A stretch of DNA of 64,000 nucleotides from Candidatus Brocadia sinica JPN1. Lineage in GTDB: Bacteria; Planctomycetota; Brocadiia; Brocadiales; Brocadiaceae. This document shows positions 24,767 through 63,151 of the stretch, in pieces. The notes under the pieces are model-generated. The model was not told where the DNA came from. It did not search any database and saw only the letters and a program-made list of their open reading frames with translations. The stretch covers positions 620,001-684,000 of the forward strand of contig NZ_BAFN01000001.1 of assembly GCF_000949635.1 (NCBI RefSeq), written 5' to 3'. The position numbers and the translations under genes are program-made. Numbering within the stretch: the stretch's first letter is position 1; every line of letters starts with the position of its first letter.

Positions 24767-24812
24767 CGTATTATTATCCTGCAATACTTTTCCATCCAAA
24801 ATAAATAAATGG

Positions 24813-24884
24813 AGCGGGTGATGGGGTTCGAACCCACGACATTCACGTTGGCAACGTGACGCTCTACCACTGAGCTACACCCGC
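24813..24884 (-). tRNA. tRNA-Gly(GCC)
   Basis: Cloverleaf on the minus strand: acceptor GCGGGTG pairs with CACCCGC, D-arm TAGCTCAGTGGTAGAGC, anticodon loop TTGCCAA (GCC), T-arm GTGGGTTCGAACCCC, discriminator T. CCA is not encoded. It is the last of a six-tRNA run immediately upstream of tig. Confidence 0.95.
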
Positions 24885-24909
24885 TACTTAATTCAAATCT
24901 ATTTTCTGG

Positions 24910-24991
24910 TGCGAGAGGGGGGAATCGAACCCCCACGCCGTAAGGCACAAGATCCTAAATCTTGCGCGTCTGCCAGTTCCGCCACCCTCGC
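24910..24991 (-). tRNA. tRNA-Leu(TAG)
   Basis: Acceptor GCGAGGG/CTCTCGC with one G-T pair, long variable arm (TGTGCCTTACGGCG region), anticodon loop TTTAGGA (TAG), T-arm GGGGGTTCGATTCCC. Class II tRNA, about 82 nt, CCA not encoded. Confidence 0.94.
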
Positions 24992-25113
24992 CCAATATGG
25001 CAATAAAATTACACCCTTGGCGGAATTCCTGAATCTACTTTTTCCCTTTGGTAAAAACAAACGAGAATTAAACCGGATCTTTGGCGCTCAAAAGACAACT
25101 GCATCGTAATAGA

Positions 25114-25189
25114 TGGTGCGCCCTGAAAGATTCGAACTTTCGACCCACTGATTAAGAGTCAGTTGCTCTACCAACTGAGCTAAGGGCGC
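25114..25189 (-). tRNA. tRNA-Lys(CTT)
   Basis: Acceptor GCGCCCT/AGGGCGC, D-arm TAGCTCAGTTGGTAGAGC, anticodon loop CTCTTAA (CTT), T-arm AAAGTTCGAATCTTT, discriminator A and encoded CCA (25114-25116). Confidence 0.95.
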
Positions 25190-25235
25190 CCTTAACGGTT
25201 TATGCGGAAAAAGTCAAAAAGGTTCTTATGAATAA

Positions 25236-25309
25236 CGCGCCCGGCAGGACTTGAACCTGCAACCGTTGGATTCGAAGTCCACCACTCTATCCAATTGAGC
25301 TACGAGCGC
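25236..25309 (-). tRNA. tRNA-Arg(TCG)
   Basis: Acceptor GCGCTCG/CGGGCGC (one T-G pair), D-arm TAGCTCAATTGGATAGAG, anticodon loop CTTCGAA (TCG), T-arm GCAGGTTCAAGTCCTGC, discriminator G, no encoded CCA. Confidence 0.93.
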
Positions 25310-25530
25310 AAAATTTTTCGCGCAAAAGCACGTTATATTTATACTTAAGATAGCTCAAAACACCGCTACATGAAACGATATCGACTAAGACACAAATTAT
25401 AATTACTTTTTTAAAAAAGTCAACTGCATTCCCCGTAGGAATACATTGCCAAAAATACTTTAACAGAAAGTATTTGATTTCAATAAACAAATAAGTCCCG
25501 CAACAAAAATTTTGGCGCGGGACTCAAAAT

Positions 25531-25608
25531 TGGGGTGAGCGACGGGATTCGAACCCGCGACCCTTAGAGCCACAGTCTAATGCTCTATCCAACTGAGCTA
25601 CGCTCACC
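25531..25608 (-). tRNA. tRNA-His(GTG)
   Basis: Acceptor GTGAGCG/CGCTCAC with G-1 opposite discriminator C, the histidine identity pair; anticodon loop CTGTGGC (GTG); T-arm GCGGGTTCGAATCCCG; encoded CCA (25531-25533). Confidence 0.95.
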
Positions 25609-25645
25609 ACAGTGTGTAATTACTGGCAACCTGAATTTTTATATA

Positions 25646-25722
<77 letters not shown>

Positions 25723-51409: not shown

Positions 51410-52762
51410 TTATTCAAGTGTTTTAAGAAGCTTCTTTGGTGTTTCTTTCGGATGTTCAATCTTTTTCCAATATTCCGCAAATTGAAATTTTGGACTGTGT
51501 TCACTATTATGACAAATCACACAATTGCTTTCACCTGTTGTACCATAGTCATTCTTTACACTTTTTATATGTTTACTTCCAGCACCATGACAGCTTTCGC
51601 AACCCACATCTATTAAGTTTCGATTTTTTTGGTAATTCAAAAATCCTGAAACATCCCCGTAGCCGGTTGTATGACACTTAATACATTCCGGGTCATATTG
51701 ATGACCAACACCAATCAGGGTATTATATGAAGCACCGTGTGTTGTTTTGTACCAGTGATCGTATATTACTTTATGGCATACTCCACAGGCAAAACTGCCC
51801 ACATAGAATAACCCCTCTGGGAGGGGCGCCTGAGGGGTCTTGCTTAATAAATCTTCATCCACAAGTTGTTGCTGGTATTCCTTCAATAATGAAATCATTT
51901 CTTTTGAATCTTTGTAAGTATGGTCCAATGGAACAACCTCAACGGACTTTCTTTCAACAACATTTTTATTTATTGAATAGTGCGCAACACCAATGTACTT
52001 TCCACCCATCCCGGGAGAAACAACTGGTGTGTTATTAATATATATTGCATCCTCTGGTTCATCGCTATTGTGCCCACTTATAATTAATCCTATTTCTGGA
52101 AAGAATTTTGCAATCTCGACGGACTCTTCCAGTGATGAATGCGAAAGTAATACTAAGAGATCTACCTTACCATGCAACTGTTTAACCAGAGGGCTTAGTG
52201 CTTTTACTGGCTCAGATACATTCACATAATCCAACGCATGCGCACTAAAAAGGGATTTGGAAAGAATACCGAAAAAGGCAATTTTAAAAGAATGCCCAGA
52301 ATAAAAACGTTCTTTTATGACATATTGACTGATTTTTATTGGAAATGGACTAACAATTTTTACGTTGCTTGAAAGGAAATTTACTTTATTCGTTTGGGAT
52401 AAAAAGCTGAGTATTTGTGGACCAAATCCAATATCCTTTTCACCAAGATTATGTAACACATACCCCATTTCTCCCATTGCACGGCATAGAGTTTCCAGTT
52501 TAATCTCATCCTGTCTACTGTAACCCCTGGAAAGATCGCCTAAACTTACCGGTAAAACAATGTTCCCTTGTTTCCGAAAGAAATCTATAAACGAATGCCT
52601 TCTGGAAATTCCCCCAAGTTGACCCTCATAGCAACCGCATGGTTCAAGATTTCCCAACTCCTCTCCGGAAAAAATTATCGATATTTTCTCAGGAAAAGCA
52701 TAAATCGTACTAGATAGAAAAACAATAAAAAAAGCAAAGAGATACCCTAGATGCTTCCTCAT
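51410..52762 (-). CDS. Metallophosphatase-like / tetraheme cytochrome fusion
   Basis: 450 aa, signal peptide (YLFAFFIVFLSSTIYA). Residues ~27-310 match the UshA-type calcineurin phosphatase fold (NLEPCGCYEGQLGGISRR, NLGEKDIGFG, LLSHSSLEE, LIISGHNSDEP). The usual metal ligands are partly absent: the first motif reads SGEELGNL without the DxH. Residues ~325-450 have four CXXCH hemes (CGVCH, CIKCH, CESCH, CVICH), like cytochrome c554. It starts 18 bp downstream of a DUF1573 gene and ends 3 bp before the GH57 gene. Electron transfer is the more certain function. Confidence 0.85.
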   Translation of the reverse strand: MRKHLGYLFAFFIVFLSSTIYAFPEKISIIFSGEELGNLEPCGCYEGQLGGISRRHSFIDFFRKQGNIVLPVSLGDLSRGYSRQDEIKLETLCRAMGEMGYVLHNLGEKDIGFGPQILSFLSQTNKVNFLSSNVKIVSPFPIKISQYVIKERFYSGHSFKIAFFGILSKSLFSAHALDYVNVSEPVKALSPLVKQLHGKVDLLVLLSHSSLEESVEIAKFFPEIGLIISGHNSDEPEDAIYINNTPVVSPGMGGKYIGVAHYSINKNVVERKSVEVVPLDHTYKDSKEMISLLKEYQQQLVDEDLLSKTPQAPLPEGLFYVGSFACGVCHKVIYDHWYKTTHGASYNTLIGVGHQYDPECIKCHTTGYGDVSGFLNYQKNRNLIDVGCESCHGAGSKHIKSVKNDYGTTGESNCVICHNSEHSPKFQFAEYWKKIEHPKETPKKLLKTLE

Positions 52763-52779
52763 AATGAAAGGATACTTAA

Positions 52780-53811
52780 TTACCCTCTTACTTCCCCACT
52801 GATAGGAATAGTAATAACTGGTTGAATAGCACTGTTTGTGTATATTCTTAAACTACCCGTAATTTTCCCAGCCAGTATATCTTTGCCCAGCTTAATGTCT
52901 ATTTTCTTACTACTATCATTTAAATCAGACACTGCATAATTTATTATACTTGGATCAGCCTCAATCTTTTCTATTTTCACATCTTTATTCACGAAATTCA
53001 CTATAACCGATCTGTTTGGGTCTTGATTTTTTTTAATATTACCAAAAGATACCATTTCCGGATAAAAAGTAACATCCCCAATAACTTCTCCGGAAAATGG
53101 GATATCTATCCTTTCCTGTCTGTTGCTGCTTGTATAGAGAAACACAATTCCATTAAATTTGCCAATGAAATCGTATTTTTCAATAGAAACCTGATAACTA
53201 TAGACATCGTCATCCGTTGTTTTATTTTGTGTAATCGTAATATAAGGATTAGGTGACTCTACTTTCTTTACTTCAATTTTCAACTCAGGCGTTGTTTTTA
53301 TCTCTACATTCCTGGTACAAGAATCACCTTTTCTTATAATACCGAAATTAATTTGTTTTGGATTAACGCGAACCTCTTCAATTATTTCTCCGGTAATAGT
53401 TAATTTATATGCTGGATTTTCAGGATCGTTTGAGTTCACTGTAACTGATTTCGTTACTCTGCCAATAAAACGGCCTGGATTAAATTTAATCTGTACCTCG
53501 CCTTCTTCACCTTTAAGTAGGTTACTCTTTGAAACCAAAGCAGCTGTACACCCACAAGATGATTTGACGCTGGTTATAATTAATTCACCAGATCCATGAT
53601 TTTTAAATATGAATCCGTGTTTCACAATCTCACCAATATAAATTTTGCCAAAATCATACAATTTCTCTTCAAAAACTATTTTAGGTTTTTCCAAAATTTT
53701 TTCAGTATGAGTATTTTCATTGTCTCTCGTGTCTGCTATTAAGACATTACAGCATGTTATAAAAATGAACAACAGTTGTACCATGATTAAACACACTTTC
53801 ATTTCTTTCAT
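52780..53811 (-). CDS. DUF1573 beta-sandwich repeat protein, exported
   Basis: From ATG 53811 (AGGAGA about 10 nt upstream), 343 aa. N-terminal hydrophobic segment with two Cys (FIFITCCNV), so possibly a lipoprotein. Then repeated ~100-aa Ig/ASPM-like domains: LYDFGKIYIGEIVKHGFIFK with SSCGCTAALVSKS, QINFGIIRKGDSC and MVSFGNIKKNQDP, each followed by GEI/GEV motifs. DUF1573 proteins are secreted and common in planctomycetes; function unknown. Precedes the cytochrome fusion by 18 bp, probably the same operon. Confidence 0.8.
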   Translation of the reverse strand: MKEMKVCLIMVQLLFIFITCCNVLIADTRDNENTHTEKILEKPKIVFEEKLYDFGKIYIGEIVKHGFIFKNHGSGELIITSVKSSCGCTAALVSKSNLLKGEEGEVQIKFNPGRFIGRVTKSVTVNSNDPENPAYKLTITGEIIEEVRVNPKQINFGIIRKGDSCTRNVEIKTTPELKIEVKKVESPNPYITITQNKTTDDDVYSYQVSIEKYDFIGKFNGIVFLYTSSNRQERIDIPFSGEVIGDVTFYPEMVSFGNIKKNQDPNRSVIVNFVNKDVKIEKIEADPSIINYAVSDLNDSSKKIDIKLGKDILAGKITGSLRIYTNSAIQPVITIPISGEVRG

Positions 53812-54049
53812 AGCAAATGTATCTCCTATTAATTTACATGTAGTACTTCTTGAATTTATCAGGCGAACAACACATATTCCTGCAGCATTTCCACGCGTTC
53901 TCATAATATCAAGATCAATAAAATCAACTTAACGATTTTTATACTACAATAGTTTATACCTTCAATCAACAAAAATCAATCCAAGCGATTTTTGAGAAAT
54001 TAGCGCCTCTTTTTGATCACTTTTTCCTTTTTTGACACCTCTGCAAAGT

Positions 54050-54102
54050 TAAAAACACGAAGAGCTGGGAGGAGGGGAGAAACCCGCCTAACCCAGCTCT
54101 TC
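54050..54102 (-). terminator. Terminator of the hydrazine synthase operon
   Basis: On the minus strand GAAGAGCTGGG (54102-54092) pairs with CCCAGCTCTTC (54069-54059), with an inner C/G-rich fold, and is followed by GTGTTTTTAAC. It lies 62 bp after the hzsA stop. The space from here to 53811 is non-coding. Confidence 0.88.
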
Positions 54103-54163
54103 AGTTGTCTTACTTCCGGTTCCCGGCCTTCATGAAGACAAGCTCAGGGATTTCCTTCAGGCA

Positions 54164-56593
54164 TTATCTTGCCAGATAGCCAGGGTAAAAATCAGGACCC
54201 TGGATGTTATCCCACTGCGCCCCGATGTCTATCCACTCGACAAACAAATACCTCTCATCCTGCGTGAGGAATTTGTCGTGCATTACCCTTCCTTCAATCG
54301 GGAATACATTCTCTCTCGGCGCAAACTGACTCAAAGCCTCTTCATACAGCCTCCAGATCAACAAGCTGTTGATGGCTGATGATGGATGAACATACTTGCC
54401 GCCAAGGTTGGGATCCTTACCCCTCTGTGGTTCAAGCAAACTATTGTATGAACGGCTGAATGCTGCAACACCATCAACACTCGCCAGCTCTCCACCACCA
54501 CTCAAGTCCGGAGGATTGTTCGCATTGTGACAACCCGAACACTTTGCATCGATGATCGGCTGAATATCCCTGCGGAAATCCACCGTCCTCCTCTTCTCAT
54601 CTGTTAGACCTTCCACTGGCTGTGATGTCGTACCTGATGGTCCTCCATAGTACACGTCCGATGGCACCACCACATCCTCACCATGTTTTACCCCCTGATA
54701 GTTACCATTCTTATCAAGCTTCAGGTATGCAAATGCAAATGGTGAATCATAGTGACTCCTGTCATCATACCACCAGTTGTACAACGCCTTCGTGTGCTGG
54801 TTCTGGAATGCCCTGCCCCTGTAGGAACCATCATGACATCCACTGCAAATCCTGCCATGATATGGCCTCAGATATGCCCATGATAACCCGCTCTGCACTG
54901 CCATCCCCTTGTCATCCAATATCTGAATGTAATAAGGGGTGTCTGCCGTCTGTGACGTAACCACCGACCCGTCATCCTCTACATACTGATACCCGATTAT
55001 CCTTCTCTGCTGGAATGCAGTCCCTGAGTTGCTGCTTGACCTCTCTCCACCCAAAAGGTGGCTTCCAACTCCAGCCTTGAACCTGCTTGCCTCAGGCTCC
55101 ACACACTGCACACCCTGTACTATCCTCACTGCCTTCACATCGCCCGGCTTCATTACCTTCGCCCTCTCGGATGGATACGGGCCAACCTTCGTGTCTGTCA
55201 GTGTCGTGTCAAAACAAATCCATGTGCCCCAGGAATGTGGATATCCCTCCACCTTCACCTGGTCAAATGGCTGATACGTCACTGTCGTTACACCAAAGTT
55301 CTTCCCTGCGGTAAAGGTATTGATCCACCTTGGCTTGTACTTAATATACACAGGCGCTGGTTGATGATCGTTCCACTCCGGATCATTGTATACTAATTCC
55401 CCTGCCTTGCCATTCTTGCAGTCAAACCAATAGATTCCAAAATCACCTCTCTCTGCATAGGACACCAACATCCTGTCATCTGGAAGTGGGTATGGGCTCC
55501 TGTACAATCCACCATCATCCTTCGTCAGCCTCTCGTAGGTCTTGTTATAGGGAGCATCCCAACTGACTGCTGCCAATTGACCAACACCCCAGTTCATATA
55601 GGGTGACTCTACATATACCAGCTTTCTGTCTCCAAAGGTGATCTTGGCCTGAGATCTGCCACATGCGCCACCAATCTCATCCGGGCAGTTACCATAAATC
55701 GCCCTTGGATACGCGCCATCCCAGTTGTCTACTTCCAGCAACACCCTGCCTTTGCCTTCTGCCCTGCTACCATTGGCCTGGACGCTGGAAAACAGGATGT
55801 TTCCATCCGGCGTAAGCGCAGGATCATAGTTTGAACTCACGTTGTAAGTGATCTGATCTATCGAAGTATTCAGATGAGGAAACTCTATACCAGACAGCAC
55901 GTGACCGGTAATTCTCTCTGTCACATGGCCTCCCTGCGTATCCAACCTGAAAAGATTATACGCATACGGATTATGGAACTCGTCCCTCACGCCATCCGGA
56001 GAACCTGCGAAGATGATGAACCCCGTCTTCTCTACCGTGCCCCTCTCCTTCCAGTCTCCTTCAAAATACCTGTCTCTCCATATCACGCGACCCTGACCCT
56101 CTTCAATACTACCTGCCGCATAATAGATCGGGCTACGACAAGTACCTTTATAATCAGTCATCTGCCTTATCCCGCTGCCATCTACATTCATCTCCCATAT
56201 CTGACATCCGCCGCCCTTCTTGTGGATCCCGGCAAACGCAAACTTCTTACCATCCCAGTACGTGCAGGGATCAAAAGCTGACGCAAAATCATTGGTCAAT
56301 ACCTTCAATTCCTTTGTCTTTAAATTGTAGCTTACAATCCGGCTGCCCTCTGACACATAGTGCGGATAGTTCTGATACGGATCACCCTTTGCCGTCCTGG
56401 GTGACTGGGTAAACAATATCACGTCCACAGGACCCTGTACCTCTTTCGACATCCCGCTATAATCCGTCCATAAGGCCTTTCCCTGCTTCGAACCACCCGT
56501 CATTACCTGATTCGATGCAAAGATATCCCCACAGACCAACGCACCGACTACCAACGCCGATGCCATTACCCCTCCTATTATCCTCTTACTCAT
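54164..56593 (-). CDS. hzsA: Hydrazine synthase subunit alpha
   Basis: Catalytic subunit that joins NO-derived hydroxylamine and ammonium to hydrazine in the anammoxosome. Start ATG 56593 (AGGAGA upstream) gives 809 aa and a signal peptide (ASALVVGALVCGDIFA). Two heme c sites, RICSGCHDGSY and AKCSGCHNAN. With this start the first CXXCH His is residue 587 and a Tyr follows at 591, matching the His587/Tyr591 numbering I recall from the Kuenenia structure, where Tyr ligates active-site heme alpha-I. A beta-propeller-like N-terminal half (SAFDPCTYWDGKKFAFAG) is also present. Last gene of the three-gene operon. Confidence 0.96.
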   Translation of the reverse strand: MSKRIIGGVMASALVVGALVCGDIFASNQVMTGGSKQGKALWTDYSGMSKEVQGPVDVILFTQSPRTAKGDPYQNYPHYVSEGSRIVSYNLKTKELKVLTNDFASAFDPCTYWDGKKFAFAGIHKKGGGCQIWEMNVDGSGIRQMTDYKGTCRSPIYYAAGSIEEGQGRVIWRDRYFEGDWKERGTVEKTGFIIFAGSPDGVRDEFHNPYAYNLFRLDTQGGHVTERITGHVLSGIEFPHLNTSIDQITYNVSSNYDPALTPDGNILFSSVQANGSRAEGKGRVLLEVDNWDGAYPRAIYGNCPDEIGGACGRSQAKITFGDRKLVYVESPYMNWGVGQLAAVSWDAPYNKTYERLTKDDGGLYRSPYPLPDDRMLVSYAERGDFGIYWFDCKNGKAGELVYNDPEWNDHQPAPVYIKYKPRWINTFTAGKNFGVTTVTYQPFDQVKVEGYPHSWGTWICFDTTLTDTKVGPYPSERAKVMKPGDVKAVRIVQGVQCVEPEASRFKAGVGSHLLGGERSSSNSGTAFQQRRIIGYQYVEDDGSVVTSQTADTPYYIQILDDKGMAVQSGLSWAYLRPYHGRICSGCHDGSYRGRAFQNQHTKALYNWWYDDRSHYDSPFAFAYLKLDKNGNYQGVKHGEDVVVPSDVYYGGPSGTTSQPVEGLTDEKRRTVDFRRDIQPIIDAKCSGCHNANNPPDLSGGGELASVDGVAAFSRSYNSLLEPQRGKDPNLGGKYVHPSSAINSLLIWRLYEEALSQFAPRENVFPIEGRVMHDKFLTQDERYLFVEWIDIGAQWDNIQGPDFYPGYLAR

Positions 56594-56669
56594 CTGTTGG
56601 CCTTCTCCTTTCACTTTCTTAAAATATTCCACTTGAACCAATTACTTTCTCTTCCAATACTTCCACTAC

Positions 56670-57692
56670 TTATAGCGCCTTCAGGAACTCCACCAAATCC
56701 TGCAAATCCTGAGCGCTCAGGTGTGACGTCCTTCCATGCATGTCCTTATCATTTACCGTGTTGTTGATCGTATCAATCAACGTCCTGGCGCTCCCGTCAT
56801 GGAAATACGTGCCTGATGCATAGATGTCCCTTAGCGTCGGAGTATCAAATTCCTTTACCAGGTCCAACCCAATGATCGGCGTATCGCTCTCCTCTCCATA
56901 GGGATCCTCACCGGCATTCAATGCCTGCATGTTAAATACCTTACCCGGCGTTGACCTGAAACCCTTCACTCCTACACGACCGGTTCCCACATCATGGGTC
57001 TGTGCATCGCTAAACAAGGCTTTCGGATCCATTGCATCCCCCGGATGACACTCTGCACATCCCACAGCAGGGTCGTTAAATAACTTCTCACCCCTCTTTG
57101 CCGCCTCTGTCAAACTGCCATCCGCATTCCTGAACGGACTTCCCGTAAACTCCAATGCCCTGATGTAACAAATCAAAGATTCTAACCTCTCCGGCGAAAA
57201 GTTCTCGCTCCTGAACACAAACCCAGGGTCTCTTCCACACACCCTGTCCAGAGAACTTGTTGCACCTACGATTTCATCCGGATGACCCGTAAACCCTTCA
57301 TGCCTGAACGGAGGCAAATACCTTCCGCCACGGATATACTTCACGTTCTTCCAGCTTCCCCATCCTTCATCTCCAAGGTCCCAGATCAAACCCGTCGTCT
57401 GTCCCCTCTCATAATGGCAGCTGGCGCATGCATACTCACCCTGCAACCCCCATGATGCATCATTGAATATGAACTGCCCGTACCTCACCAGCTCACTCTT
57501 GAATGGTGAGTGTTTTACCCGATAATGCACCTCAGGCACCGTCAATGGCTCACCCCTGGGAAGAGGCTCCCACTCCGGCCCCGTCTGGATCGTTGCTACT
57601 ACCTGCGGCGTACCCGCCATCAACTCTCCAGTTGTCATCACCCCTGCTATACCAAGGGCCGCAATTAAACCAATCTTTAGACTACTCTTCAT
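56670..57692 (-). CDS. hzsB: Hydrazine synthase subunit gamma (diheme, MauG/CCP-like)
   Basis: 340 aa, signal peptide (IGLIAALGIAGVMTTGELMA). Two heme c sites, CASCHYERG and CAECHPGDA, in a cytochrome c peroxidase/MauG-like fold (VGVKGFRSTPGKVFNMQALN, DTPTLRDIYASGTYFHDGSA). In the known complex this subunit supplies the site forming hydroxylamine from NO. AGGAGG lies upstream of ATG 57692. It is separate from the beta gene, as in freshwater genera. Gene letters follow the hzsCBA order; subunit names are less ambiguous. Confidence 0.94.
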   Translation of the reverse strand: MKSSLKIGLIAALGIAGVMTTGELMAGTPQVVATIQTGPEWEPLPRGEPLTVPEVHYRVKHSPFKSELVRYGQFIFNDASWGLQGEYACASCHYERGQTTGLIWDLGDEGWGSWKNVKYIRGGRYLPPFRHEGFTGHPDEIVGATSSLDRVCGRDPGFVFRSENFSPERLESLICYIRALEFTGSPFRNADGSLTEAAKRGEKLFNDPAVGCAECHPGDAMDPKALFSDAQTHDVGTGRVGVKGFRSTPGKVFNMQALNAGEDPYGEESDTPIIGLDLVKEFDTPTLRDIYASGTYFHDGSARTLIDTINNTVNDKDMHGRTSHLSAQDLQDLVEFLKAL

Positions 57693-57780
57693 CTTTCTCT
57701 ATCCTCCTATAATCGAGATATACTCCAATGTTACAAACATGCTCAATTCCTGTCCTGCTTCTCTCAACGACCTTCCCCTA

Positions 57781-58911
57781 TTAATCCACTGGCGTCCTTA
57801 TCACCGTCACATTGTTGGAAAAATAGTTGGCTGCGTAGCAGAGCTTCCCGTCCGGCGACAAGCATACCGAGCTAGGCCCTAGCCCCGTTGGCACCCTGGC
57901 CACGAGATAATCCCTCACCAATCCAAGGTCATCCCTCATATAATCAAGCTCAGCCTGGGAATTTCCCCTCACGATATTCAATAACTTGCCCATATCCAAT
58001 ATCGTTACGCGGTGCATCCCCCTTACCCCAATGTACAAATACCGGCCCTTCGGATCCATCGCCAACCCATAAGGATTCCCGTCATAGTTGTTGAGCTCGT
58101 CCAGCGGCATCCTCGCTACCTTCCCGCCTGGCTTGGTCTCTAACACCGCTATGTTGTTCGTAAATACCTCGCCATTCTCCGCCTCGCATACCGGTAACCA
58201 GTTCTTCGGCGTCTCATAGGTCACCACCACATACTGACCATCCGGCGTGTACACAATGTCCCTCAGGTTGGAACTCTCCCTGATAACCCTCTTCTCCGTC
58301 ACCTTCCCCGTCGCAAGATCAATAAAGTTTACACTCCTGTTGATGGAACCACACGTGTCATTCACCACTGCTATCGTCTTCCCGTCCGGCGATATATCCA
58401 ACGTCCTTGGACCGTAATCACTCGTGTAGATCGACCTGATCTTCTCCATCCTCCCTGTATCAATCACATCGATCGTGTTCCACAAGTTCCCAGAACATGC
58501 AACATACGCGGTCTTCCCATCCTTGGAAATCTTGATCCCGCTTGGCCAGTCTCCTACCTTGATCTCCTTTATCGCCTGCTTCCTCGCTATATCTATCACC
58601 GACACACTGTCACTCTCGGCATTGCATACATACAAAAATGCATTATCAGGCGTGGGCGCCGCTGCCTCCGGCTGCACCTGCACTGCCACCTCACCTACCA
58701 CCTTCTGTGTCTTCGCATCCACAAACGTCACACTGTGACCAGACTGATTGCAAATGTACAACATCCCTCCATCCGGCGATGTCGTAACAAAAAACGGCGA
58801 TGGCATGTCCGTCTTCACATGCGTCCCCTGGATAAATCCAGCATTCGCTACCCCTCCTCCCACCATCACCGCCCCCAATACCAACGCTCCTATCCATCCT
58901 CTCTCTTTCAT
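57781..58911 (-). CDS. hzsC: Hydrazine synthase subunit beta (beta-propeller)
   Basis: 376 aa, signal peptide (GALVLGAVMVGGGVANA). Seven-bladed YVTN-type beta-propeller: repeats such as SPDGGMLYICNQSGHSVTFV, DNAFLYVCNAESDSVSVIDI and SPDGKLCYAANYFSNNVTVI. No heme motif. It scaffolds alpha and gamma in the complex. First gene of the operon, with AGGAGGGAAGGAAGAGCG before ATG 58911; 88 bp separate it from the gamma gene. Symbol follows hzsCBA order. Confidence 0.94.
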   Translation of the reverse strand: MKERGWIGALVLGAVMVGGGVANAGFIQGTHVKTDMPSPFFVTTSPDGGMLYICNQSGHSVTFVDAKTQKVVGEVAVQVQPEAAAPTPDNAFLYVCNAESDSVSVIDIARKQAIKEIKVGDWPSGIKISKDGKTAYVACSGNLWNTIDVIDTGRMEKIRSIYTSDYGPRTLDISPDGKTIAVVNDTCGSINRSVNFIDLATGKVTEKRVIRESSNLRDIVYTPDGQYVVVTYETPKNWLPVCEAENGEVFTNNIAVLETKPGGKVARMPLDELNNYDGNPYGLAMDPKGRYLYIGVRGMHRVTILDMGKLLNIVRGNSQAELDYMRDDLGLVRDYLVARVPTGLGPSSVCLSPDGKLCYAANYFSNNVTVIRTPVD

Positions 58912-59189
58912 CGCTCTTCCTTCCCTCCTAAATCTTCTACTTATCTTAAGGAATTATAGACATGAAACACTTTTACAATACCACATTTTATACCAATTCG
59001 GTTTACCGACTTACTGCTCAACGAATCCGCCAGAACCACCTCCTTTCACATTATACTACAATCTATCATTGAGTTTACCCACACCACTGCGTGTCTCTGT
59101 TTAAATTATCCGGCATTGTATGCTAGAGACAACCCATACTCTATTGCAAGCCATCAGTACCTACAAAAATTTATTGTAGTCGGAAAATG

Positions 59190-59205
59190 AGCAATATGTG
59201 TACCG
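59190..59205 (-). promoter_or_regulatory. Candidate sigma54 promoter upstream of hydrazine synthase
   Basis: On the minus strand CGGTACACATATTGCT carries GG and GC exactly 10 nt apart and a perfect TTGCT, against consensus TGGCACGNNNNTTGCW; three conserved positions differ. It would start transcription near 59179, leaving a leader of about 270 nt before hzsC. The remainder of the 504-bp gap (58912-59415) has no gene. Confidence 0.4.
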
Positions 59206-59415: not shown

Positions 59416-60804
59416 TTATGACGATGATTTGTCAAATAATTGCAATTTTACCAGTCTATTGCGAAGTGTTGTTCTGGGTATGCCTAATATTTCTGCCATT
59501 TTGACCTGATTACCATTTGTTTTTTGATGTGCCCATTGAATAAGTTTTTTTTCAACTTCCGTAAGTGCGTCTTGCAAGCTTATCGCTTGCTTGTTATACA
59601 AATCCATTGACAATAAATCTTTGTGTACATCAACTTTTCTCAGGTATTCTGGAAGTGTTTCTAATGAAATACCTTTTGATTTAGAAAACGCAACGGCGTG
59701 TTCTACAACATTTTCAAGCTCTCTGACATTTCCTGGCCAATCATAGGCCAGCAGCACATTCATTGCCTCTTGTGAAACATCCGGCAAAGCGTCCTCATAT
59801 TGGGATACAAACTTCTTCAAAAAATAATTGATTAAGAGGGGAATATCTTCCTTTCGTTCCCGTAACGGCGGAATACTAATTGGCACCACATTTAACCGGT
59901 AAAACAGGTCTTCTCTAAACCCCCCCTCTTTTACCCGTTCCAAAAGGTCTTTTTTTGTTGCGCAGATAATTCTCACATCAACGCTAAGGGTTTCTTCCCC
60001 TCCGACTCTTTCAAATGTCCTTTCTTGAAGCACACGTAAGAGTTTGACTTGCATATCCAATGGTATGTCGTCTACATCATCCAAAAAAATCGAACCTCCG
60101 TTTGCCAGCTCAAATCTTCCGCGTCTTGTCTTAATCGCACCTGTAAATGCCCCCTTCTCATGGCCAAAGAGTTCACTTTCCAGTATTTCTCTGTTTAATG
60201 CTGCACAACTCACCCTAATAAACGGACCCATTTTTCTACAACTGTGGTAATGAATGGCGCCCGCTATTTTTTCCTTTCCGGTTCCACTTTCTCCCCGTAT
60301 AAGAATAGTCGCCTCTCTCCCCGAAACGCTCACAACAGTCTCAAGCACCTTTTTCATGGCTTCGCTATTTCCGACAATATTGCAAAACTCAAACTCAGCT
60401 TGTATTTCGCCTCTCAGACGATTTACTTCGGCAGCCGTATTTTTGAAATGCAACGCCCTTTGAAGTTTAATAATCAATTCATCGGTCGAAAACGGTTTCG
60501 CGACATAATCATACGCCCCCTCTTTGATTGCCAACACAGCGCTTTCAAGGGTCCCGTATGCCGTCATGATGACGACAATTATTTCCTGATCGTATTTTTT
60601 AATCTCTTTCAGAAAATCCATTCCGTTCATACCTGACAATCTCAGGTCTGTTACCACCACATCATATTCTTCAGATTTAACCATTTTTAAACCATCGAGA
60701 GCATTATCCACTGATTTCACATGATAACCTTCCTTCTTCAACTGGCTTTCCAAAGATATTCTCATGAGTTTTTCGTCATCCACTATTAGCACCTTACCAT
60801 CCAT
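59416..60804 (-). CDS. NtrC-type sigma54 response regulator next to hydrazine synthase
   Basis: 462 aa. Receiver with acidic pair VDDEK and D53 (VTDLRLSG), sigma54 AAA+ domain with Walker A GESGTGKE, GAFTGA loop, Walker B GGSIFLDDVDDI and REDLFYRL, and a Fis-type HTH (MAEILGIPRTTLRNRL). Standard NtrC layout with no extra domain. It lies 504 bp upstream of hzsC on the same strand, with its kinase 22 bp further upstream. A terminator separates it from hydrazine synthase, so the tie is regulatory and not operonic. Targets are unproven. Confidence 0.94.
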   Translation of the reverse strand: MDGKVLIVDDEKLMRISLESQLKKEGYHVKSVDNALDGLKMVKSEEYDVVVTDLRLSGMNGMDFLKEIKKYDQEIIVVIMTAYGTLESAVLAIKEGAYDYVAKPFSTDELIIKLQRALHFKNTAAEVNRLRGEIQAEFEFCNIVGNSEAMKKVLETVVSVSGREATILIRGESGTGKEKIAGAIHYHSCRKMGPFIRVSCAALNREILESELFGHEKGAFTGAIKTRRGRFELANGGSIFLDDVDDIPLDMQVKLLRVLQERTFERVGGEETLSVDVRIICATKKDLLERVKEGGFREDLFYRLNVVPISIPPLRERKEDIPLLINYFLKKFVSQYEDALPDVSQEAMNVLLAYDWPGNVRELENVVEHAVAFSKSKGISLETLPEYLRKVDVHKDLLSMDLYNKQAISLQDALTEVEKKLIQWAHQKTNGNQVKMAEILGIPRTTLRNRLVKLQLFDKSSS

Positions 60805-60826: not shown

Positions 60827-63151
60827 TCAGGTCAAGACCGTTACTTTTCTCACTGGCAAGCAAACGTAAAATGTTGTCCCTTCGCCTGGTTTGCTCTTAA
60901 CTACTATGTTTCCATTATGATCGTCTACAATTCTCTTGCTGATTGCAAGTCCCAATCCGCTTCCCATTTCCTTTGTTGTAAAAAACGGATTGAATATCTT
61001 ATTGAGAATTTCCTCCGGAATCCCCGACCCGGTATCGGAAACAACAACCTGTATACTGGACGGTTGAAAGTCACAGTAACCAGTCTTAATTATCAAGCTC
61101 CCACCATTCTGCATGCTATCCAAAGCATTTACGATAATATTAATAATAACCTGTGAGATATTATCCGGGTCTCCATAGATTTCAGGTAAACCGGGAAACA
61201 AAATCTTCTCCAGCCGTATTCCAAGCTCTTTTATTCTATGATCCACAAACCGTAAGGAATTTTCTACGATCTCATTTAAACTATGGCTAGACATGTGTGT
61301 AGAGTACGGTCTGGAAAATGCCATCAACTGCTTTACAATAACCTCTATCCGTTTTAGCCCTTCTGACATCAGATCAAGAAACTCCAGATTTTGTGATATA
61401 TTCCCCGGCTCTTTTTTCATCATTTTTACAAAATTCTGCAATCCTCCTAACGGGTTGTTCACTTCATGGGCAACACCCGCAGCCAATTCTCCCACAGCAG
61501 CCAAGCGTTCTGCCTGAATCAGTTGCAACTCCATTTTTTTCCTTTCTGTAATATCCCGGCAAATCCACTGAATCGTTTTCCTTTTACCATATTCAATCGC
61601 ACTACCACTGATACTGGTAGGAGTGAGACGCCCATCTGCATGCTGATAATCAACATTATCTAGCATACCAGATCCTGTTTGATTTATTACCATCCACAAC
61701 TGTCTTGTCTTTTCCCGATCATATTCGGGGACTATATCCCATATCTTTTTTTGTCGTAATTCATCTTTTAAATATCCCGAGAGCTCCTCGGCCTTTTTAT
61801 TTGAATCAACAATCTGTGCCGAGTCTGCATCAAGAGTAAAAATAGCATCGTTAGCGAGATTGATAGATTCTCTATATTTTCCCTCAGATTCCCTCAGTTG
61901 GGCTGTCCGCTCACGAATCTTTTGCTCTAGTCCAGCATAAGACTCTTCCAATTTCTCAGCCATCTTATTAAACTCTGATGCAAGTATACCTACTTCATCT
62001 TCTGAGTTAATCGGAATGCGATGTCCGAGATTCCCCTTCCCAATCGCATTCGCCCCCTGAACCAACTGAAGAATGGGTTGTGTGATTCCGTGCGCCAGGA
62101 TAAAAACGATAACAACAATAACGAATACACTTACAATCGCCAGGGTAATTACCTGATCTTTTAATTCCATAATAGGCTGAAAGGCCTCAGACGTATCCTG
62201 CTTCACAATCAATCCCCATTTCAACTGAGGTATATAACGAAAAGCCGAAAGGACTTCTAACCCCCGGTAATCCAAAGCCTTTATAATTCCTTCTTCCTCA
62301 TCATCTAACATAAAAGACTCCGGCACAATTGTTTTCACAGGGATACTCATTTTTAATGCAGCATCCGTAAGATGTCGCGTATTATTGAGGAACAGTAACC
62401 GGTCCCCGTCGCGTCGCGCCAGTAAGGTCTCACCCGTTTCACCACTGCCAGGCCAGTCCTGCAGCAATGCTCCTATAGCATCATTTGTATTTACACGGAT
62501 AAGAACAATACCATTGATAATCTCTGTTTCCTCCATGGTAATTGGATCCGTTCTTTTCATGATGCCGAAAAGGGTCATTCCTATCCGCTTTGTATATCCG
62601 GAATAGTGGACATCTTTCAAAGGTATTCCATTATTTACCAGCACATCAAGATAATACTTGTAATCCCCATCTATTACCCCTATGTTTGATTCCATAGTGG
62701 AAATTACGGTCTCGCCGTTCTCTACATCGAGGATAGCTATTTCATCACAATAGATCAACTTTTCCTTGAGTTTGCCTAAATACTCTGAAAGTCTTTTATA
62801 ATAGACCTCGCCAATTTCCGATTCTTTCATCCTGTCAATAGTGTGAAATGCTTTTCTCAAGTAAAGCAGATTGGAAAACGATACCTCTAAAGATTTGTTT
62901 GTCGAAAGCACCCCAATATCAACCATCCTTTCCTGTAACCAGTTGCTGAGTTGTGCCTTTTTTAAATCCGCAATAGAGGTCAGCTTTTCAACCACTTTCT
63001 CGTTTAACGCTCTTTTTCCACGGTTATACGCCGTACTACTCACGATCAGGATAGGAAGTGTTGTCATGAGAATGAGATAGCAGATGAGTTTAACCTTGAT
63101 ACTCTTAAAAAACCCAACAAGACTTTTTGCCCACGTCCTATTTTTCATCAT
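60827..63151 (-). CDS. Membrane sensor histidine kinase, dCache-HAMP-PAS
   Basis: 774 aa. Transmembrane segments ~20-42 and ~335-358 bracket a double-Cache domain ([30 protein letters not shown]). Then HAMP (~355-410), PAS (~425-545, ending DITERKK), HisKA with H-box [14 protein letters not shown], and HATPase with [21 protein letters not shown] and GSGLGLAIS. It should read an extracytoplasmic small molecule and phosphorylate the sigma54 regulator 22 bp downstream. Starts at ATG 63151 with a second ATG at 63148. Confidence 0.93.

Follow-up and report, generated by a model that had tools for sequence, protein, structure and literature searches.

Duplicate hydrazine synthase loci of Candidatus Brocadia, probably homogenised by gene conversion and separately controlled

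The hydrazine synthase (HZS) operon of Candidatus Brocadia very probably belongs to a pair of duplicate loci that date from the Brocadiaceae ancestor, are homogenised by gene conversion, and are separately controlled. HZS is the signature enzyme that defines anammox, and hzsA and hzsB serve as its marker genes. The stretch of 64,000 nucleotides analysed here (the window) contains a genuine, complete hzs operon; beyond what the preliminary description of the window had recorded, the operon proved to be duplicated, with apparently homogenised copies, and the genome holds a third, gamma-only copy. We propose the following model. The pair would already have existed in the Brocadiaceae ancestor, and recurrent gene conversion over a cassette, bounded in most genomes by the hzsB Shine-Dalgarno sequence and a point just past the terminator, would keep the copies identical, with the leaders and promoters of the two loci staying separate. 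HZS could thereby be made from two independently controlled sites, three with the lone hzsC, and this is the likely purpose of the layout, since each locus lies behind a sigma-54 response regulator and a sigma-54-like site. The enzyme is known; what we add are old duplicate loci, putatively homogenised and under separate sigma-54 control, and a conserved lone hzsC.

Identity and active sites of the window operon

The preliminary description had recognised a complete hzs operon at 54164-58911 (reverse strand), in the order beta-gamma-alpha, with two haems each in gamma and alpha and conserved active-site residues, and had assigned it to an anammox bacterium, all of which holds. Each subunit exceeds the cut-off of its NCBIfam hydrazine synthase equivalog model, and alpha, gamma and beta align without gaps over the mature chains to chains A, C and B of the solved Kuenenia structures 5c2v and 5c2w (phmmer; Table 1). 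This alignment, which the preliminary description had proposed as a check, retains the His/Tyr pair of site alpha-I, and the closer match to a non-anammox TolB-like cytochrome family that it had named as counter-evidence is absent, the TolB match of alpha reaching 30 bits versus 1599 for the HZS-alpha model. Beyond these, the only notable profile matches (Pfam, NCBIfam) are to relatives of the propeller and di-haem peroxidase types, which score far lower. The operon shares its three subunits, gene order, haem motifs and zinc/tyrosine site with HZS of Kuenenia stuttgartiensis (kuste2859-2861). The DNA comes from a Candidatus Brocadia: its hzsA clusters in the tree of that gene with genome G010 and Ca. 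Brocadia sapporoensis, and Ca. Brocadia pituitae (G004) falls within the same genus group.

Every published residue for which we looked is present. Alpha has CxxCH motifs at 583 and 685 and, in Kuenenia numbering, Cys303, His587, Ser590, Tyr591, His689, Arg748, Arg760 and His772; Cys303 and Tyr591 accompany the first motif (His587) at alpha-I, and the second motif (His689) and His772 form the bis-His pair of haem alpha-II. The preliminary description had treated His587 and Tyr591 as the haem pair of alpha-I: the numbering and both residues stand, but His587 does not bind the haem iron, for in the published structure it holds zinc together with Cys303, and the iron ligand is Tyr591 (PMC12607021, PMC12758564). 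Gamma carries CASCH at 89 and CAECH at 212, and with residue numbers 13 lower than in Kuenenia its C152, H131, D155 and E109 correspond to the published C165, H144, D168 and E122. At gamma-I, C152 and H131 stand at the places of Kuenenia C165, the third cysteine link, and His144, which occupies the place of Trp in peroxidases and MauG. The proposed start of hzsA at ATG 56593 is supported by the gap-free Kuenenia numbering and by a Shine-Dalgarno-like AAAGGAG just upstream. By homology, the window enzyme would make hydrazine from NO and ammonia in two steps: haem gamma-I would reduce NO, and haem alpha-I would join the resulting product to ammonia by condensation.

Table 1. Features of the hzs locus in the window (positions are those of the window)
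Feature	Position	Strand	Evidence and remarks
UshA-like / cytochrome c554-domain protein, D1	51410-52762	-	Pfam, NCBIfam; conserved D1 neighbour
DUF1573 protein, D1	52780-53904	-	Pfam; downstream of the window hzs; conserved D1 neighbour
Shared, putatively homogenised cassette	53982-58934	-	4,953 bp; second copy at G000 C1:2797315-2802267, 6 mismatches (blastn of the two loci)
Terminator-like hairpin AAGAGCTGGG...CCCAGCTCTT then CGTGTTTTT	54060-54101	-	Within 3' end of the block; sequence and fold
hzsA, hydrazine synthase alpha	54164-56593	-	809 aa; two CxxCH; Tyr591 haem ligand, His587/Cys303 zinc site; 5c2v_A 1591 bits (phmmer); NF052339 1599 bits, cut-off 800
hzsC, hydrazine synthase gamma	56670-57692	-	340 aa; two CxxCH; proposed NO-reducing site; 5c2v_C 665 bits (phmmer); NF052341 741 bits, cut-off 625
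hzsB, hydrazine synthase beta	57781-58911	-	376 aa; seven-bladed propeller, haem-free; 5c2v_B 674 bits (phmmer); NF052340 766 bits, cut-off 560
hzsB Shine-Dalgarno AGGAGG	58924-58929	-	At 5' edge of the shared block; sequence
Candidate sigma-54 promoter CGGTACACATATTGCT	59190-59205	-	280-295 bp before hzsB ATG, outside the shared block
Sigma-54-dependent response regulator, U1	59416-60804	-	Receiver, AAA+, Fis-type HTH (Pfam); U1 clade in tree
Sensor histidine kinase, U1	60827-63151	-	HAMP, PAS, HisKA, HATPase_c (Pfam)

The shared cassette, its surroundings and its leaders

The window genome (G000; 4.08 Mb, 3 contigs) was scanned for repeats by a 20-kb DNA search. Its second operon lies at 2.80 Mb, in the orientation opposite to that of the window copy. 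The coding differences between the copies are six synonymous and no non-synonymous changes, and beyond the shared block blastn of the two loci found only short or weak similarity. The plasmid collection gave no match. In the window the block takes in 23 bp ahead of the hzsB ATG and 182 bp past the hzsA stop, reaching beyond a terminator-like hairpin that a simple terminator scan did not report; the collapsed contigs L047, L053 and L057 show similar hairpins in their 3' ends. Among the eight two-copy Brocadiaceae genomes compared, the 3' edge falls 105-182 bp past the hzsA stop and the 5' edge, in six, 13-23 bp ahead of the hzsB start. The position of the 5' edge varies, since the block begins 9 bp inside hzsB in G022 and reaches the contig end in G015. 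Collapsed short-read contigs have nearly identical ends, with lengths of 4,866 bp (B. sapporoensis), 4,891 bp (Jettenia ecosi) and 4,879 bp (Kuenenia hertensis). The block thus runs from the hzsB Shine-Dalgarno sequence to just past the terminator in most genomes, and the promoters are therefore not shared.

Two upstream and two downstream modules recur around hzs across genera: U1, a histidine kinase and a sigma-54 regulator; U2, cytochromes, a cytochrome b, a sigma-54 regulator and the small protein F5; D1, DUF1573, UshA-like, GalT-like and GlgA-like proteins; and D2, an HAO-like protein, trpB, trpA and hydrazine dehydrogenase. The U1 histidine kinase is present in 30 of 33 Brocadiaceae genomes. 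The window genome and G004 combine U1-D1 with U2-D2, the latter being the neighbourhood common to Scalindua and other anammox families. The Kuenenia kuste2854-2861 cluster (PMC12053348) has the layout of the U2 locus, that is, of the other copy, and the neighbourhood of the window copy differs from it. Because the loci of Scalindua and other outgroups have the U2 and/or D2 context, the U2-D2 locus is taken as the older, ancestral one and the U1 locus of the window as the younger, derived one. F5 (184 aa, L004 4726-5280), which matched no Pfam or NCBIfam model, directly precedes hzsB at the ancestral locus in several families, at the position of kuste2858. Hydrazine dehydrogenase is also duplicated in G000 (L004 14686-16431 and L097, C1:2472554-2474287), with 99.5% identity across 1,805 bp; downstream of the second hzs operon lies one of the copies.

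Is each copy under its own control? The hzs leaders are locus-specific, and RpoN is encoded in the window genome. In the 505-bp leader of the window operon the best match to the sigma-54 consensus, CGGTACACATATTGCT, scores 12.7 of 15.2 (95th percentile of shuffled sequence, 12.2), and all six U1 leaders have such a site (GGYA-N5-TTGC invariant; 12.7-14.7 of 15.2). The seven aligned U2 leaders all have a TTGGTAT...TGCT element before F5, which scores 11.7-12.7, in most cases under the same shuffle threshold of 12.2, so the U2 site rests on its fixed position. The strongest sites of the three loci belong to the lone hzsC, where they occur in 11 of 11 leaders (13.7-14.7 of 15.2). A GG-N10-GC element, an activator and RpoN are thus found together, less clearly by score for U2, and we infer that these putative promoters place the hzs loci under sigma-54 control. 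One may object that the GG-N10-GC sites are chance matches and that the adjacent regulators do not control hzs: consensus matches are weak by themselves and the U2 site is near background. We consider this rather unlikely, as the same type of site recurs at a similar placement in the six U1 and eleven lone-hzsC leaders, each behind a sigma-54 activator.

Concerted evolution across the Brocadiaceae

In the eight Brocadiaceae genomes with two hzs copies, the copies within a genome show 99.7-100% identity across some 4.8-5.3 kb, although polishing of long-read assemblies can erase small real differences between copies; in G017 a frameshift splits one hzsA copy. Values of dS are 0-0.006 within genomes and 0.80-2.15 between species (0.13 for one close pair), so that paralogues are closer than orthologues at synonymous sites. 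In the hzsA tree the copies group by genome, and in the tree of the adjacent response regulators the sequences group by locus, U1 versus U2, with an SH-aLRT support of 100. This is the pattern of a pair evolving in concert. The flanks at both loci are orthologous across genera despite the near-identity of the copies, and the regulators form two old clades; the duplication is thus older than the species compared, and both loci are old. Gene conversion is the most likely homogenising agent, judging from the pattern of sequence similarity.

Recent, independent duplication of the operon in each species, with too little time for divergence, would also give near-identical copies in every genome. It is very unlikely, as the same two regulatory neighbourhoods carry hzs in several genera, the neighbouring regulators belong to two old clades, and the operon would have had to insert into these same two places independently. 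Even less credible is an artefact of assembly or polishing, in which a single real copy was doubled or divergent copies were flattened: short reads have difficulty with a 4.9-kb repeat, and its collapse is evident in some assemblies, but single-contig genomes such as that of Ca. Brocadia pituitae (AP021856.1) contain two copies, in each of the drafts G011 and G012 a D1 contig and a D2 contig both begin in the hzsA tail, and divergent copies would not collapse into block-length contigs. Selection on protein or codons alone, without recombination, might be invoked for so central and abundant an enzyme, but it is practically negligible given synonymous sites that are near saturation between species and almost unchanged within a genome, and a non-coding 3' tail that is shared as well. 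On the evidence of flanks and dS, recent independent duplication and protein-level selection alone were rejected.

Exchange between concerted hzs copies would also explain why flank pairings are swapped in some genomes. G009, G017 and G022 have U1-D2 and U2-D1; G024 has U2-D1, plus U1 with other genes downstream; G015 has U2-D2 and, where a contig ends, a D1 copy. The Kuenenia-like G020 departs from the pattern, with U2 followed by other downstream genes, an hzs copy in an unrelated context, and U1 regulators that are not adjacent to hzs. As proof of crossing-over, the swapped flanks were set aside, since assembly joins across the 4.9-kb repeat could yield the same arrangement.

A published 'hzsCBA-less lineage' was attributed to gene loss or incompleteness, a choice left undecided there (PMC9387917). 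Our search for hzsA gave no match in 11 of 33 Brocadiaceae genomes, several of them rated 96-100% complete. In seven of the 11 (G002, G006, G007, G014, G023, G028, G031), the U1 contig crosses the promoter and ends 25-40 codons into hzsB (L109-L120), and it likewise ends early in hzsB in G011 and G012, which have only hzsA fragments. Such ends are expected if identical copies were collapsed and lost in assembly or binning. This truncated end was not seen in G008, G013 and G019, and G030 had no match to the U1 kinase. Collapse of identical copies would explain most of the Brocadiaceae assemblies apparently without hzs, and some look like assembly losses.

The lone hzsC and relation to known systems

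The third locus of the window genome carries hzsC alone (G000 C1:872614-873639; L095 8614-9639), after a related histidine kinase and sigma-54 regulator, and is intact in ten Brocadiaceae species. Lone and operon hzsC differ by a dS of 0.005-0.16 in five genomes (G004 was left out of the between-genome values of this comparison, and its within-genome value was used), in three of these the compared core of the gamma proteins is free of amino-acid changes, and in each of the five a DNA tree places the two genes of a genome together. It is conceivable, and we suggest it tentatively, that the lone hzsC is functional and no leftover, supplying extra gamma or a free-standing, NO-handling gamma under a separate signal. 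In G024 the third locus (L102, C7:80001-97000) is decaying, a beta-gamma remnant interrupted by in-frame stops, which illustrates the fate of an hzs copy no longer kept intact. G020 instead has a partial beta-gamma copy in a different context; this hzsB-hzsC copy (L041, L108) lies about 7 kb from the full copy, with repeated flanking sequence between them.

Two identical hzs copies in different surroundings have already been reported for Brocadiaceae (PMC12758564), and hzs duplication for K. stuttgartiensis MBR1, which also has a partial copy (PMC5854607), and CSTR1 (PMC7709395). These reports likewise describe two full, near-identical copies whose surroundings differ; the passages in question contain neither a test of old loci against recent duplication nor cassette edges, and PMC12758564 makes no mention of gene conversion, concerted evolution, recombination or sigma factors. 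Long-lasting concerted evolution, attributed to gene conversion, is described for amoCAB, haoAB and cycAB in Nitrosomonadales (PMC6053082). These, too, are central ammonia-oxidation genes in several near-identical copies, but of an aerobic pathway in another phylum, and that paper contains nothing on hydrazine, anammox or planctomycetes. In the searchable literature, outside of which most subscription journals fall, we found nothing on concerted evolution of hydrazine synthase, and none of the anammox gene-conversion papers is, judged by title, about hzs. Copy identity is thus already published; that literature yielded no account of family-wide concerted evolution, of a layout with three switches or of a conserved lone hzsC.

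What would concerted evolution of hzs mean? If the copies do evolve in this way, anammox bacteria took the same route as the aerobic ammonia oxidisers with amo and hao, which would suggest that enzymes activating ammonia are generally required in additional, identical copies. In Kuenenia, which hzs copy is expressed was left open because near-identical copies could not be distinguished (PMC7438415). Since the leaders differ up to the Shine-Dalgarno edge in most genomes, reads across this edge can reveal the expressed copy. Marker counts in Brocadiaceae may amount to about two per genome for hzsA and hzsB and up to three for hzsC. Elsewhere in the window, six tRNA genes (Arg, His, Arg, Lys, Leu, Gly) form a cluster at 24810-25722 on the reverse strand.
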